This document shows, piece after piece, positions 1,769 through 34,550 of a DNA stretch of 64,000 nucleotides. The translations under genes and the position numbers were made by a program. The stretch spans positions 1 to 64,000 of the forward strand of contig JAJFJQ010000035.1 of the NCBI GenBank assembly GCA_021773835.1, read 5' to 3'. This DNA is from Gammaproteobacteria bacterium. Its GTDB lineage: Bacteria > Pseudomonadota > Gammaproteobacteria > Ga0077536. Positions within the stretch are counted from its first letter, which is position 1. Every line of letters starts with the position of its first letter. Below the pieces are notes generated by a model, which worked only from the letters and a program-made list of their open reading frames with translations, was not told the origin of the DNA and made no database searches.

Positions 1769-2446
1769 ATGCCCGCTGCGAGTTCCACCGTCTCCGAATC
1801 AATCGTTAGTTTCCTGGCCCAATGTCATAAACGGCAGTTCCCGCCCAAGGCGGCGATCATCCGGCAGGGAGACCCAGCGGGTGAGTTGTACTACATTATT
1901 AGCGGTTCGGTCACAGTCCTACTGGAAGACGATAAGGGCCATGAAATCGTGCTGGCCTACCTTAACCCCGGCGACTTCTTTGGCGAAATCGGTTTGTTTA
2001 ATGAAGATGCCAACCGAACCGCGCTCGTTCGAGCACGCGCGGACAGCGAGATAGCCCAAATTAGCTACAATAAATTACGCGGGCTGACCGAGCTCTACCC
2101 CGATTTGATCATTGCGATGACCTCGCAGATCGCCCGTCGGCTGCGAAATACGAACCGCAAACTTGGGGATTTGGCGTTCATGGACGTCTATGGACGCGTC
2201 GCCAGGACGCTACTCGATTTGTGTGACGAACCCGATGCCATGTCCCACCCAGACGGTACCCAGGTTCGGGTTACCCGTCAGGAACTTGCGCGTCTGGTTG
2301 GTTGTTCGCGCGAGATGGTCGGCAAGGTGGTCAAAGACATGGAAGAGCAAAAACACATCGCTGCCAATGGCAAAAATATTGTCGTATTAGGCTTCCATTC
2401 TTCGATCTCTGCCGACGCCACGTCGGCGCCCCACACCACCGACTAG
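1769..2446 (+). CDS. crp: cAMP receptor protein, CRP/Vfr type transcription factor
   Basis: Global regulator that binds cAMP and then DNA sites of the TGTGA-N6-TCACA type. The 225-residue protein has an N-terminal cyclic-nucleotide-binding domain (about 15-125) with the phosphate-binding cassette FFGEIGLF and the Arg/Thr pair in ANRTALVRA. A dimerisation helix (GDLAFMDVYGRVARTLLDL) follows. The C-terminal winged helix has the recognition helix GCSREMVGKVVKDME, nearly the same as in E. coli CRP and Pseudomonas Vfr. A -10-like TATACT at 1692-1697 lies upstream but its -35 is poor. An AAAGG ribosome site precedes ATG 1769. The C-terminal extension after VVLGF is longer than in Vfr. It is the natural candidate to act at the two CRP-like sites near 31.5 kb. 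Confidence 0.95.
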   Translation: MPAASSTVSESIVSFLAQCHKRQFPPKAAIIRQGDPAGELYYIISGSVTVLLEDDKGHEIVLAYLNPGDFFGEIGLFNEDANRTALVRARADSEIAQISYNKLRGLTELYPDLIIAMTSQIARRLRNTNRKLGDLAFMDVYGRVARTLLDLCDEPDAMSHPDGTQVRVTRQELARLVGCSREMVGKVVKDMEEQKHIAANGKNIVVLGFHSSISADATSAPHTTD

Positions 2447-28161: not shown

Positions 28162-30939
28162 TTACGTATCGCTGCCGAGCTGTGCCGCAATTTCATCCAA
28201 CAGGTTCGCATCGTGCTGAACGCTCTCCTTCTGCGCCTCTATTGCTCGGCTCTTGATCCGTTGTTTTTGCCGCATTTGCTTTTCAAGTTCGTGGCGTTGG
28301 GCCGTGGACCCTTGAATACGCTCTTGCTCCGAGACCCATTCGTCGAGTTCCTTTTGTAGCAGGAGGTTGATCTCGTTTTGGGTACCGTAGGTTCGTTCCA
28401 GGCGCTCCTCCGATTCTCGATGCCGCGTTTCTGCGCTGGTTTCAACCGCGACCGCATTACGCAGGCGCTCGGTGGCGGCGCGTGCCCGTTCTTCGATAGC
28501 GGCGATTTCTTCTTTCAAGTTAGCTTCGGTTGAGTCGATCGAATCGTGCCGTTCGCGAGTGGCCTCAAGCTGCGCCTCGGCCTCGCGCTTGATTGCTTCG
28601 GCCTCGGCCCGTGCATTGGCCGCTTCCTCTAGCTGAGACTTGAGGCGAGCAGCGTCGGCCTCGATTTGTTTGCGTTGCTCGATCAGTTTTGCCGTTTGCT
28701 CGGCCTGCAGTTTTTCCTGCGCTTGCTTGTATTCGAGGATGATGCGTTGGGCCTCTTCGGCGGCACCCATTTTCGCGGCTTCTGCGGCCTGCTGTTCGCG
28801 ATGGGCCCGATCGATTTGCTCAGCGGTATTGGCAAACTCAGCCTCGAGCTTTTTACGTTCGGCGTTTAGCTCCGCCTGCAACTCCGCGCGCATCTGATTT
28901 TCTTTCTCTTCCATTTCCTGCTCGCGTTGTTGCTCGACCCGGAGCAATTCAGCCTCGAGTTCTTTCGCCGCCGCTAGGCGTTCCTTGGACAAGGTTGCTT
29001 CCGTCTCTATTTGCGCCCACGCGCCTTCGAGCTCTGCTTGCGTTTTTTCACGCTCTTGTTCTAATTCCTCCAGTTTCTCGGTTTGTTGGCGGTACAGCTC
29101 CTCGATCCGTTTCTCTTCCGCTTGCAGCCGCATCTCAGCTTCACGTTCTAGTGCAGTGGTTTGGTCTTGTTGCTCCCGGTGACGTCGTTCGGCCTCTTCT
29201 GCCGCAAGCGATTGTTGACGCTCGATTTCGTCTTTGAGCCGTTGTGCTTCGGCCAATTGTTTCTCTATTGCCGCTGCCTCGGCGTCAATTTTGGCCCGCT
29301 CTGCTTGCAGAATTTCGGCAGCACGGCGGTCGGTTGCCTCTTTCGCCGCTTGTGCCTCGGCGATTCTGGCGCGTTCAGCACGAAGCTCTTCGGCGAGCTG
29401 GCGATCGGCTTCTTCCTTAGCGGCTTGCTCAGCGGCCATCTTGGCGCGCTCTTCGGCCAAAATCGCCGCCGCTAGTCGATCCGCATCCTGTCTGGCTGTT
29501 TGTTCTGCGGCTTTCTTAACCTCTTCTGCCTGGCGTTGTTGCTCAGCGGCGATTTTCGCGCGTTCGGCTTGCAGCTGCTCTTCGGCTAGACGCGCGGCTT
29601 TCTCCTTGGCCGCTAATTCTTCCGTCAATTTGGCACGTTCGGCCTGAAGCTTCTCCTCGACCACGCGATCGGCCTCTTGTTTTGCGGCTTGAGCTTCGGC
29701 CATTAGCCGTTGTGCTTGTTCTATCTGAAGATTCGCCTTCTCCAAATCGGCCGCAAGCGATTGCGCGCGAATATCGGCATCGACGATCTCGTCTTGTGGC
29801 GTGCTCGGTTCCGGTTCTGGATTTGGATCTGGATGGGCTTCGGGTTGATTTACGGCTTGTGGTTCGGCGATTTGGGCCGTTTGTTTCTGCGGTACCTCAT
29901 CAATCGCGCCGCCTTCAACATAAGAAACCTCGAAACCTTCCTGAGTGAGCAAAAAGGCGGCGGCCGAGCTACGTCCTCCGGTGTCGCAATAGGCGACATA
30001 ATAGGTTTCACGGTCGAGTTCATGGTGTGAACCTCGGAGATTACTGAGCGGGATATTGATGCTACCGTCGAGCCCGTTTGCGGCCTGTTCTTCGGGAAAG
30101 CGAACATCCAACCACTTTGCCCCATCGGCGACAATCGCCCGGGCCTCGTCCAAGGTGCAGGTCCGCATTACGGGGGTCTTGATGAGTTCCACGAATTCCG
30201 CTTTGGTCAAACGGGCCAATTCGCCATCTGTCAGCATCTTGACTGTTGCATTGCGCTTGGCGTTTGAAACAAGCGCTTCTTCGCCGAATCTGGCACCCGG
30301 ACCGAGTTCTGCGAGTTTTATTGGTTTGCCTTTTTTAGCGGAGCGCAATACTTCACATCGCCCGGATTGGATGGCGTAGTAGTAGTCTCCTGGCGATCCT
30401 TGCTCGATGACGACGTCCCCAGCCTTAAACTCTACGGACTCAAGTGTCTCCAGCAATCGCTGAATATTTGACGGGGGGACATGCGCAAACAGCTCAGATT
30501 GCAACATGTCGGTCAACCAATCACCGGATGACTCGGCTTCAAGCTCAGTGACTTCAATGTCGGGTGTATCTGGGCTCGCCGTATTCTCGACGCTCAGCAA
30601 GCGATCGAGCAGCCCCCGATCGACGCGTAACACCTTGACCTTGGACCTTGCCTGGGCCGACATTTGGCGGGGTTGGAGCTGTGCTAACGCATGGAACGAT
30701 GCGCCTTCGCCGCCAACCACCCGTTTTATCAGTTGGTCATCGGCATACAATTCCACCTCACCCTCGATAACGTAGAAGGACCAACCGTCACGGTCCCCCT
30801 GGCGGAACACGTACTCCTTCTTTTTGATATCGATGATCTCGGCACCCTGGAGCACTTGCTCTTGTTGTGCGGGCCCGAGATTGTTGAGTGGGACCAATAA
30901 GGTCAGGCGTGAGTGAAGGGCCTCTTGTTCTTCGGTCAT
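28162..30939 (-). CDS. Dual cyclic-nucleotide-binding, rhodanese and long coiled-coil protein (copy 1)
   Basis: A 925-residue cytoplasmic protein without a signal peptide. CNBD1 (about 15-115) keeps the fold (FRQGDRDGWSFYVIEGEVELY) but its phosphate cassette is degenerate. CNBD2 (about 150-252) has an intact cassette FGEEALVSNAKRNATV with Glu220/Glu221 and Arg229, so it can bind a cyclic nucleotide. A rhodanese domain (about 262-347) follows with WLDVRFPEE and an active loop CDTGGRSS starting at Cys318. After a Pro/Glu-rich linker, residues about 395-925 form an almost continuous Ala/Glu/Arg/Lys/Gln coiled coil with many AKEEADR/LQAERAKI-like heptads. It is paralogous to the divergent 31608-34550 gene. 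The DUF465 gene 33 bp upstream is probably in its operon. Function unknown; ligand sensing linked to a filament or scaffold is my inference. Confidence 0.92.
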   Translation of the reverse strand: MTEEQEALHSRLTLLVPLNNLGPAQQEQVLQGAEIIDIKKKEYVFRQGDRDGWSFYVIEGEVELYADDQLIKRVVGGEGASFHALAQLQPRQMSAQARSKVKVLRVDRGLLDRLLSVENTASPDTPDIEVTELEAESSGDWLTDMLQSELFAHVPPSNIQRLLETLESVEFKAGDVVIEQGSPGDYYYAIQSGRCEVLRSAKKGKPIKLAELGPGARFGEEALVSNAKRNATVKMLTDGELARLTKAEFVELIKTPVMRTCTLDEARAIVADGAKWLDVRFPEEQAANGLDGSINIPLSNLRGSHHELDRETYYVAYCDTGGRSSAAAFLLTQEGFEVSYVEGGAIDEVPQKQTAQIAEPQAVNQPEAHPDPNPEPEPSTPQDEIVDADIRAQSLAADLEKANLQIEQAQRLMAEAQAAKQEADRVVEEKLQAERAKLTEELAAKEKAARLAEEQLQAERAKIAAEQQRQAEEVKKAAEQTARQDADRLAAAILAEERAKMAAEQAAKEEADRQLAEELRAERARIAEAQAAKEATDRRAAEILQAERAKIDAEAAAIEKQLAEAQRLKDEIERQQSLAAEEAERRHREQQDQTTALEREAEMRLQAEEKRIEELYRQQTEKLEELEQEREKTQAELEGAWAQIETEATLSKERLAAAKELEAELLRVEQQREQEMEEKENQMRAELQAELNAERKKLEAEFANTAEQIDRAHREQQAAEAAKMGAAEEAQRIILEYKQAQEKLQAEQTAKLIEQRKQIEADAARLKSQLEEAANARAEAEAIKREAEAQLEATRERHDSIDSTEANLKEEIAAIEERARAATERLRNAVAVETSAETRHRESEERLERTYGTQNEINLLLQKELDEWVSEQERIQGSTAQRHELEKQMRQKQRIKSRAIEAQKESVQHDANLLDEIAAQLGSDT

Positions 30940-30971: not shown

Positions 30972-31178
30972 TTAAGCATCCAGATCTGGAATTAACTCAC
31001 TCTTGAGTCTCGATATTTGGTCTTTTAGTCGGAGCTTGCGTAATTTCAATCTGCGGATCATTAATTGGTCGACATCGAACGTCGCAGATAACCGGTTAAC
31101 AACCTCATCGAGGTCACGATGCTCAATCTGCAATTCGTATATTCGCCGCTGTATCGATTTTTCTGAGGAATCCGTCAC
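30972..31178 (-). CDS. DUF465/YdcH-family small coiled-coil protein
   Basis: A 68-residue helical protein (RRIYELQIEHRDLDEVVNRL, then IRRLKLRKLRLKDQISRLKSEL). The pattern H-x-x-L-D and the RLKxxKLxLKDxI motif are typical of DUF465 (YdcH-like) proteins. It is read toward the 925-residue CNBD-rhodanese gene with a 33-bp gap, so the two are probably co-transcribed. The conserved link between DUF465 and a giant coiled-coil protein is suggestive but unproven. Confidence 0.85.
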   Translation of the reverse strand: MTDSSEKSIQRRIYELQIEHRDLDEVVNRLSATFDVDQLMIRRLKLRKLRLKDQISRLKSELIPDLDA

Positions 31179-31461
31179 CAGATCTCGTTCTCGCCGCCGG
31201 TCAAAAATCGAGGTAGAATTCTACGCTCAAATGTAAAAAAGTGTGGCATCGGATTTTGCGGTCGAATAATTGACCGGTTTGTTGAGGAGCAGCGACAAAG
31301 ATCGCGCCCACATCGGGTAAGTAGTCCCGACGATAGCCCAAGGAATTAATAAAGCAAAATGTACGGATACGCGCGAAGTGAAGGCAGCGTTGGTAGGTAA
31401 TACATTTTCCGGTGCAAATTCGGAAATTTTGAGCACTCCTGTCTCCCGCTCCCGGGTCGGT

Positions 31462-31477
31462 GGTGACTAGGGTCACA
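31462..31477. promoter_or_regulatory. CRP-type binding site 1
   Basis: GGTGA-CTAGGG-TCACA: 9 of 10 bases match the TGTGA-N6-TCACA consensus. It lies between the DUF465/CNBD operon and the divergent 980-residue CNBD gene. Confidence 0.65.
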
Positions 31478-31502
31478 ATTTCCGTTGAATCATCGGCGAT
31501 TG

Positions 31503-31518
31503 CGTGACGCCTATCACA
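31503..31518. promoter_or_regulatory. CRP-type binding site 2
   Basis: CGTGA-CGCCTA-TCACA: 9 of 10 bases match the consensus. Its centre is 41 bp from the centre of site 1, about four helical turns, so both would face the same side of the DNA. A TAAACC hexamer at 31541-31546 could be a -10 box placing this site near -41.5 for the rightward gene, the class II CRP position. Confidence 0.62.
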
Positions 31519-31607
31519 AACACCCTCCAGTGAACCTGCGTAAACCCGTTACGGTTGCTTAACTGTATGAAGGTGGCCACGTCGATTATGTCAACCCGTG
31601 CCCTAGT

Positions 31608-34550
31608 GTGGAAGAAGGTTTTAGCCGAATGGCCGCAATGCCAGCATTAGAACAAAGATTTGAAAGCGTCTTTCAGATGCTCGTGCCTATCAATGGGCTG
31701 TCTCTTCAACGTCAGCAGCAATTGTTGACGCAGTCCGAAACACTCAGTTTTGGGCCGCGTGAATTTGTCTTTCGCGAAGGTGATCGGGACAACTACGCCT
31801 TCTTTTTGCTAGAAGGGCGACTTGAGTTGCTTGCCCAAGATCAACTCGTTAAAAAACTAGAGGGCGGTACCGGGGATGGCGTCTACGCCTTAGCCCAACT
31901 TCAACCGCGCCAACTCTCTGCGCGCGCTAAGACTCGGGTCACGGTATTGCGTGCGGACCGGGCATTAATGGACAAATTGCTTGCCATCGACGGGGCTGGC
32001 GAAATCCAGGAAGTCAAGGTTAGCGAAATTGAAGCGGCCGACGACGGCGATTGGATGACTCGAATGCTCCAATCCGAGTTATTTTCCCGCGTCCCGGCGG
32101 CCAACATCCAACGGATATTTACAAAGCTCGAATCGATCACTGTTAATGCGGGCGATGTAATCGTTGAGCAAGACGCGCAAGGGGATTTTTACTACATCAT
32201 CCAACATGGCCGTTGTGAGGTCACTCGGCAAACCGCCACTGGTAAGGCTCCGATTAAATTAGCAGAGCTCGGTCCTGGGGACTCATTTGGCGAGGAGGCG
32301 CTGGTATCCGATTCGGAACGCAATGCCAACGTCAAAATGCTAACCGATGGCGAACTTATGCGTCTGGTGAAAGACGACTTTGTTGAACTGATAAAAACGC
32401 CGTTATTGAGCGCCCTCGACCTGGCCGAAGGCAAGCGTCGCGTAGCCGAGGAAGGTGCGCAGTGGGTCGATGTGAGATTTCCGGAAGAACATGCAGTCGG
32501 CGCGATCGAGGGCAGCATCAACCAATCGCTCAATACGCTACGGATGCACGCGGAGCGACTCAACAAAGACAAAACCTATATCGTCTATTGCGATAGTGGC
32601 TCGCGTAGTTCAGTCGCGGCTTTCCTCCTATCTGAGCGTGGGTTCGACGTCCACTGCTTGCGTGGCGGCTTATTGGAATATGGAATTCTTAGCGCAACCG
32701 ACCAACGCTTCACGGAGGATATAAAAGATCCTGAAGCGGCGACGGGCGACCTTACCATCGATGCAGGGAATGCGGGCGATTTACCGATTACGGTTGCCGC
32801 CTTGGTGCCTTCGTCGCATCGGTCAGAGGTCGAACAAGATTCAGCGAGCACGCCGAGGTCGTCCGATGTAGATGATGTGATTGACTCGGAAATCAAGGCG
32901 CAGGCGTTAAAAGCGGAACTTGGCAAGGCGAACATAAAACTCGAGGAGGCCCGCCGCTATAAGGAACAAGCAGAGCTCGCGCGCGAACAGCTCGAAGTCG
33001 AGGCTTCAAAAACGCTCGAACAAGAGCGCCAGCGTCTCGCCGAGGAAGCACGCGAGGCGAAAAAGCAGTTAGAAGAAGCAGAAGCGTTGAAAAAAGAGCT
33101 GGCGAAAGCCAAACAAGAAGCGAAGAAACATGCCGCTGAACTAGAGAAAAAACGCATTGCGGAACTCGAAGAAGCTAACCGGCAAGCCGAAGAAGCGCGA
33201 CAACTGAAGAAAGAACTGGCGAAGGCCAAACGTGTGGCTGCGGAGCAGGCAAAGAATCTCAAGTTAAAAGAAAAGACAGAGCTTGCCGAAGCCAACGCAC
33301 AGCTCGAAGAAGCGCGCCGTCTCAAAGAAGAAGCCGAGGCCGCGGCGAAGCGCGTAGACGAGGAAGTTGCCGAACGGCTGCGCCTGGAACAGGAACGCTT
33401 GTCAGAAGAAGCTCAGCGCGCAAAAGCGGTTTTGGATGACGCCGAGCGAATTAAGGAGGAGATCGCGCGGCAAAAAGAAATCGCCGAAGCGGAAGCTGAA
33501 AAGCGTCGCCTTGAACAGGAAGCCGAGTTCGAAGCGATGCAGCGTGAGGCTGACACTCGCATGCGCGAGGAAGAAAAGAAGCTTGCCGAAAGTTATGCCT
33601 GGCAAGCGGAAGAACTCGCGCGACTACAAGAAATGAAGGATGAGGCCGAGGCCGAGCTTAAACTAGAACGCGAGCGACTAAAAACGGAAGCCTCAGAGGC
33701 GAAACTCCGACTACGCGAAGCGCAACGGATCCAGCATGAAGTTGAGCAGACCCGGATAGAGAGCTCTAAGGAAGCCGAGGAAAGACAGCGACGGCAGGTC
33801 GAGCTGGAGCGAAAGCTCAGGGACGAGGTGCAAGAAAAAATCGTTTCCGAACGGCACAAGATCGAAGCCGAGTTCGCGCGCAATGCCGAAGAGCTGGAAC
33901 GTGCACGTAGTGAGAAAGCGGCCGCGGAAGCAGCTCGTATTGCCGCAGCCGAAGAAGCAGAACGGATCATTCAAGAATACAAGGAGACGCACGAACTCCT
34001 ACGCGTACGGGAAGAAGAGAAACTCAATAGCGAACGGCAACGTTTGCAGCGGGAAGCGGCCGAGCTGCGTGAGGCTCTGGAGGAATCTAGACGAGAAAAA
34101 GAAGAAGCCTTGGCGCATCAACTATCCGCAGAGAAACAAATAGCGACATTAGCGGCAGAAGCCGGAACCGGGGCGAAAGCAGAAGAATTGGCGGCCGATA
34201 TTGCCGCACTTGAAGCGGAAGCAAAAGAAGCAAGGGATGCCGCAGAGGCGGCCGAAGAGGCTCAGCGCAAAGCACAGGCTGCCGCGGACGCAAACCGCGA
34301 GTTCATGGAGCAGAACCAAAATGAAGAGAACGAAAGTCGCGATCGCTTCGAGGACGAGATCGCCAGCTGGCTGCAGGAACAAGAAGCCTATGAAAGTAGC
34401 GAACTACAGCAGCAGATCCTGGCGAATCAAAAGGCGCATCTAGAGCGCATAAAAGCGAGGGCGCAGTCGGCCCGCGAAGCAGCCAAACAGCATGATCAAT
34501 CACTGATCGATGAGCTAGCCGATCATCTGCGTGAGGACGAATCGCTCTAG
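31608..34550 (+). CDS. Dual cyclic-nucleotide-binding, rhodanese and long coiled-coil protein (copy 2)
   Basis: A 980-residue paralogue of the 28162-30939 product with the same domain order. CNBD1 is at about 23-125 (degenerate cassette). CNBD2 is at about 160-262 with FGEEALVSDSERNANV (Glu229/230, Arg239). The rhodanese domain is at about 270-357 with VDVRFPEE and the loop CDSGSRSS from Cys328. Then comes a coiled coil of about 540 residues rich in EEARRLKEEAEAA-like heptads. It starts at GTG 31608; ATG 31629 or 31638 would align better with copy 1 and remain possible. The tail (HDQSLIDELADHL) matches the end of copy 1 (HDANLLDEIAAQL), so even the C-terminus is under constraint. It is divergent from copy 1 across two CRP-like sites. 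Confidence 0.92.
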   Translation: MEEGFSRMAAMPALEQRFESVFQMLVPINGLSLQRQQQLLTQSETLSFGPREFVFREGDRDNYAFFLLEGRLELLAQDQLVKKLEGGTGDGVYALAQLQPRQLSARAKTRVTVLRADRALMDKLLAIDGAGEIQEVKVSEIEAADDGDWMTRMLQSELFSRVPAANIQRIFTKLESITVNAGDVIVEQDAQGDFYYIIQHGRCEVTRQTATGKAPIKLAELGPGDSFGEEALVSDSERNANVKMLTDGELMRLVKDDFVELIKTPLLSALDLAEGKRRVAEEGAQWVDVRFPEEHAVGAIEGSINQSLNTLRMHAERLNKDKTYIVYCDSGSRSSVAAFLLSERGFDVHCLRGGLLEYGILSATDQRFTEDIKDPEAATGDLTIDAGNAGDLPITVAALVPSSHRSEVEQDSASTPRSSDVDDVIDSEIKAQALKAELGKANIKLEEARRYKEQAELAREQLEVEASKTLEQERQRLAEEAREAKKQLEEAEALKKELAKAKQEAKKHAAELEKKRIAELEEANRQAEEARQLKKELAKAKRVAAEQAKNLKLKEKTELAEANAQLEEARRLKEEAEAAAKRVDEEVAERLRLEQERLSEEAQRAKAVLDDAERIKEEIARQKEIAEAEAEKRRLEQEAEFEAMQREADTRMREEEKKLAESYAWQAEELARLQEMKDEAEAELKLERERLKTEASEAKLRLREAQRIQHEVEQTRIESSKEAEERQRRQVELERKLRDEVQEKIVSERHKIEAEFARNAEELERARSEKAAAEAARIAAAEEAERIIQEYKETHELLRVREEEKLNSERQRLQREAAELREALEESRREKEEALAHQLSAEKQIATLAAEAGTGAKAEELAADIAALEAEAKEARDAAEAAEEAQRKAQAAADANREFMEQNQNEENESRDRFEDEIASWLQEQEAYESSELQQQILANQKAHLERIKARAQSAREAAKQHDQSLIDELADHLREDESL

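Follow-up and report, generated by a model that had tools for sequence, protein, structure and literature searches.

A predicted class I CRP-type promoter upstream of a CNBD-rhodanese-coiled-coil gene in a gammaproteobacterial genome

In Pseudomonas aeruginosa, CbpA, a protein that pairs a degenerate cyclic-nucleotide-binding domain (CNBD) with an intact one, is reportedly controlled by Vfr, a finding ascribed to Endoh and Engel in 2009. Its gene, cbpA (PA4704), is mentioned under Vfr in PMC7247823 and PMC11139211. In the class I CRP promoters of Escherichia coli, which are of the lac type, CRP is positioned at -61.5 (PMC5957442, PMC10882989); -60.5 and -61.5 are the customary class I positions, and -60.5 was found to be active at malT (PMC10882989, PMC5957442). 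The tfoX promoter of Vibrio cholerae is of the tandem-site kind (class III), with CRP sites at -84.5 and -41.5, 43 bp apart (PMC4595672). The same paper, citing Busby 1994, attributes synergistic action to tandem CRP sites 40-50 bp apart.

Here, we analyse a 64-kb stretch of DNA (the window) from a gammaproteobacterial genome, G000, in which two CRP-type palindromes, site 1 and site 2, lie upstream of a rightward gene whose paralog is transcribed leftward on the other side of the sites (Table 1). Comparison with related genomes leads us to consider it probable that the rightward gene has a class I CRP-dependent promoter. Such a layout is well established, and the locus is a sound yet unremarkable instance of a familiar type of bacterial promoter. 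As in the E. coli class I promoters, one CRP-type palindrome is centred near -61, the -35 element is poor and the -10 element follows at a fixed spacing. Nevertheless, it differs from them in that the start is here inferred from the sequence, the site begins with C and an extra upstream site is present in some genomes. The likeness to V. cholerae tfoX lies in the pairing of CRP-type sites at a spacing of 41-43 bp, as seen in G000, G009, G010 and G017, but the near site would here lie around -60.5 and the far one lacks conservation. The closest known precedent appears to be P. aeruginosa CbpA under Vfr, which shares with this locus the predicted CRP/Vfr control of a non-transcription-factor protein with a degenerate and an intact CNBD; unlike CbpA, the locus comprises a divergent gene pair whose proteins have a long coiled coil, and they also carry a rhodanese domain. 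The analysis provides a testable predicted promoter for a family of apparent non-transcription-factor cyclic-nucleotide effectors, in a little-studied group of gammaproteobacteria that is rich in nucleotidyl cyclases.

Table 1. Positions of the promoter elements, genes and candidate regulators, numbered within the 64-kb window unless a contig is given.
Feature	Position	Strand	Remarks
CRP/Vfr-type regulator gene, candidate binder	1769-2446	+	phmmer to Vfr 7few, E 1e-70
Leftward gene, paralogous 2xCNBD-rhodanese-coiled-coil protein	28162-30939	-	
68-aa DUF465 (YdcH-like) small ORF	30972-31178	-	PF04325, E 6.9e-13; conserved in 7 genomes
Leftward operon -10, TAGAAT, inside GCGTAGAAT	31218-31223	-	near-consensus; alignment of 7 genomes
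Site 1, CRP-type operator GGTGACTAGGGTCACA	31462-31477	+	9/10 match; predicted centre about -101.5
Site 2, CRP-type operator CGTGACGCCTATCACA	31503-31518	+	9/10 match, GTGA-N6-TCACA invariant across genera; predicted centre -60.5
Weak -35-like hexamer CTGCGT	31536-31541	+	17 bp before -10
TAAACC, -10 proposed in the preliminary description	31541-31546	+	not conserved
-10-like hexamer TTAACT	31559-31564	+	starts 41 bases after site 2; predicted start near 31571
Rightward gene, two cNMP-binding domains, rhodanese, long coiled coil	31629-34550	+	Pfam PF00027 x2, PF00581
Second CRP-type gene (general type)	C21:614557		

Both CRP-type DNA sites are truly present. The preliminary description had placed them at these coordinates with 9/10 matches to TGTGA-N6-TCACA and a spacing of 41 bp; we find one mismatch per site, and the spacing holds when measured start to start. 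The window contains four 9/10 sites against 1.21 expected from shuffles, and one of 100 shuffles reached four. For the whole genome, we counted pairs of the form GTGA-N6-TCAC, 15-45 bp gap, GTGA-N6-TCAC, with the reversed pattern as a control. The pair pattern occurs at only two places in 6.1 Mb and the control at none. The only other tandem pair, 32 bp apart (C59:21258-21304), is flanked by the 3' end of an argininosuccinate-synthase-like gene on one side and by the start of a PAS/GGDEF-like gene on the other. Single GTGA-N6-TCACA sequences gave 44 strand-matches genome-wide vs 22 for the reversed control, and lone matches are weak evidence on their own. A simple scan also flagged a stem-loop followed by a T run at site 1; the stem is the palindrome itself, and we took this terminator candidate to be due to chance. 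An Rfam search of the intergenic region for RNA elements gave no match.

Relatives were found with the rightward protein as the query, and their upstream regions were then scanned. The resulting set comprises 11 genomes of eight genera (G000, G001, G004, G009, G010, G011, G012, G016, G017, G040 and G043), and site 2 is found at the equivalent position upstream of the rightward gene in all of them. Its nine bases GTGA-N6-TCACA are invariant throughout, whereas the N6 and the surrounding sequence vary, with a flank identity to G000 of 0.55 in the sister species, 0.41 and 0.36 in two others and 0.27-0.32 in the other seven. The first base of site 2 (31503) is C rather than T in 10 of the 11 genomes, with a preceding G in nine; this conserved C in the first half-site position is an unusual departure from TGTGA. 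In G018, the rightward gene is kept and site 2 is missing; this genome has no second match for the leftward gene and no close copy of the window-type CRP.

Site 1 behaves differently from site 2. It is complete in 4 of the 11 genomes (three genera), where it lies 41 bp (G000), 42 bp (G009) or 43 bp (G010 and G017) upstream of site 2, as the far site of a tandem (class III) promoter might. The right half alone is kept in G001 and G016, the match in G004 is imperfect and lies at 32 bp, and when the upstream regions of the 11 genomes were compared the site was absent from G011, G012, G040 and G043. Thus, the equal standing that had been given to the two sites is not supported. The preliminary description had named as a test of the idea whether close relatives in which both genes are retained have lost the sites; site 2 passes it in all such genomes checked, but site 1 does not. 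Its variability between genomes suggests that site 1 is probably auxiliary, an extra element that certain lineages have upstream. It might be argued that the palindromes arose by chance, as about half of the GTGA-N6-TCACA matches in the genome are expected as background and site 1 lacks conservation. However, the invariance of site 2 across genera contradicts this for site 2, and just one other pair exists in the genome, so that we regard chance as an extremely improbable source.

The position of the promoter relative to site 2 was examined by scoring every offset downstream of the site for a -10 element in nine genomes, using approximate E. coli weights set by hand. The summed score at offset 41 was +33.1 and the next best was -20.5; when the sequences were shifted at random, with close relatives moved together, 0 of 1000 trials equalled the offset-41 score. 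In all 11 genomes, the distance from site 2 to the start of a -10-like hexamer (T....T) is exactly 41 bases. G040 and G043 were examined after the offset-41 rule had been set; both have TTTAAT there, with a score reached by 0.7% and 0.5%, respectively, of the hexamers within 300 bases. In G010 and G017, a better hexamer, TATAGT, is located at offset 39. The -35-like CTGCG is common to G000, G001, G011 and G012, with a third-position G in 10 of 11 genomes. In G000, TTAACT is a poor -10 that lacks A at position 2, and a consensus promoter scan of this genome did not call a plus-strand promoter at it. Poor -10 elements that are missed by promoter scans are common among activator-dependent promoters.

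This conserved -10 at offset 41 would place site 2 near -60.5 in a class I layout. A GTGA-N6-TCAC core palindrome is present upstream of the -35, and the centre at -60.5 that is inferred from the conserved -10 is clear of the -35 and agrees with the -61.5 or helical-turn multiple expected of class I sites. The preliminary description had instead adopted TAAACC as the -10, which would put site 2 at -41.5 of a class II promoter, with cAMP controlling both divergent genes. In G000 the hexamer does lie at the right distance for about -42, and the sites are located between the two CNBD genes. However, a class II site at -41.5 has its -10 about 22 bases downstream, and there is no conserved -10 there: TAAACC has no counterpart in any relative, and its offset scored -60.8, against +33.1 for offset 41, without a -10-like hexamer in any relative. 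The class II geometry with TAAACC was rejected for this missing conservation.

The part of that proposal that concerns the leftward gene fares no better. The two divergent CNBD genes are not directly adjacent, for the previously overlooked DUF465 ORF sits between them, directly upstream of the leftward CNBD gene, with which it is apparently co-transcribed; in the alignment of seven genomes, the GCGTAGAAT block precedes this ORF. Roughly 290 bp separate this element from site 2; relative to the leftward start that it implies, the two CRP-type sites lie some 260 and 300 bp upstream. No left-facing -10-like element was found at class I or class II distance from site 1 or site 2. With its own promoter element and no such -10, control of the leftward gene from the sites is not supported, and it was rejected as a candidate. 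The divergent DUF465-CNBD operon probably has its own promoter, to judge from the alignment, and is probably not controlled from the CRP-type sites. Thus, of the earlier suggestion that cAMP and CRP control both genes, the part on the rightward gene is supported by the CRP-type sites and the cross-genus conservation of site 2, and the part on the leftward gene is not supported; we consider a class II promoter with dual control to be very improbable.

The retention of site 2 in 11 genomes, along with a promoter element whose distance from it is constant, makes it very likely that site 2 switches on the rightward gene, and this gene only. At the class I promoter that we favour, a CRP/Vfr-type dimer, presumably cAMP-bound, would occupy site 2 near -60.5 and would recruit RNA polymerase through the C-terminal domain of the alpha subunit to a promoter whose -35 is poor and whose -10 keeps a constant spacing from the site. 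In G000, another dimer, bound at site 1 four helical turns farther upstream, would probably add synergy without being essential. CRP-family proteins are also capable of repression, and the tandem sites are in phase, so CRP bound here might repress the rightward gene or shape the intergenic DNA. We think this improbable, as the fixed class I geometry and the poor -35 across eight genera form a pattern that would be expected of activation.

For the rightward gene, ATG 31629 is the probable start rather than GTG 31608, since homologues begin with MTAMPAIEERF and similar sequences. Its product and that of the leftward gene both have two cNMP domains, a rhodanese domain and a coiled coil. In these proteins, the first CNBD has VYALAQLQPRQLSA, without Gly-Glu, and the second has FGEEALVSDSERNA, in which the phosphate-binding cassette (FGEEAL...R.A) is kept and which matches PKG/PKA regulatory domains; a degenerate first and an intact second CNBD is the CbpA-like arrangement. 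The two proteins differ in the residue that follows R-N-A, which is Asn in the rightward and Thr in the leftward protein. They appear to be putative cyclic-nucleotide effectors rather than transcription factors, and their activity, as the preliminary description suggests, may also be under cAMP control. No CRP site with a match of at least 9/10 was found in the stretches examined upstream of the other CNBD paralogs of this genome.

Two CRP-type proteins are candidates for binding site 2. The gene at 1769 had been called CRP/Vfr, and the phmmer match to Vfr confirms it. Both proteins have the recognition helix GCSREMVG(K/R) and the ligand cassette GE...R(T/S)A. The window CRP follows the helix pattern RQE...GCSRE.VGR save for a Lys in place of the last Arg, which is the second DNA-contacting Arg, and it has the cAMP residues (GE..., R(S/T)A and the C-helix T) in GEIGLFNEDANRTA and LRNTNRK, with Asn after the C-helix Thr. 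No site with two or fewer mismatches that would point to autoregulation was found upstream of its gene. One variant, compatible with the class I promoter, is that the operator is dedicated to this paralog, with its Lys substitution, rather than to the general CRP at C21:614557. In seven genomes (G000, G009, G011, G012, G016, G040 and G043), a distance of 18-26 kb separates the window-type CRP from the CNBD pair, a linkage that hints at a functional tie; this type of CRP is also present in most genomes with the CNBD pair, and G018, which has no close copy of it, also lacks the site. Against this, the recognition helices are nearly identical (GCSREMVGK in the window CRP vs GCSREMVGR in C21), so that either CRP could bind, the site in G004 (62% complete) is accompanied by the general-type CRP alone, and G008 and G022 have the window-type CRP with no CNBD pair detected. 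We therefore regard a dedicated operator as a tentative proposal, somewhat less than evenly probable. More doubtful still is the wider idea of a conserved cAMP feed-forward module made up of the linked, dedicated CRP paralog and the CNBD-rhodanese-coiled-coil pair, in which the messenger would both induce the rightward protein and bind to it while its partner is made independently.

With regard to the supply of the messenger, G000 has 23 matches to the class III adenylate/guanylate cyclase domain and one class I adenylate cyclase, which makes cAMP signalling plausible. A perfect TGTGA-N6-TCACA at C59:47828-47843 precedes a response-regulator/class III cyclase gene (C59:48062); it was not found upstream of the three relatives of this gene. 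Finally, CGTGA-N6-TCACA at C41:12990-13004 is followed by TATAAT at offset 40, with an FHA-like gene downstream, and this may possibly be another class I promoter.
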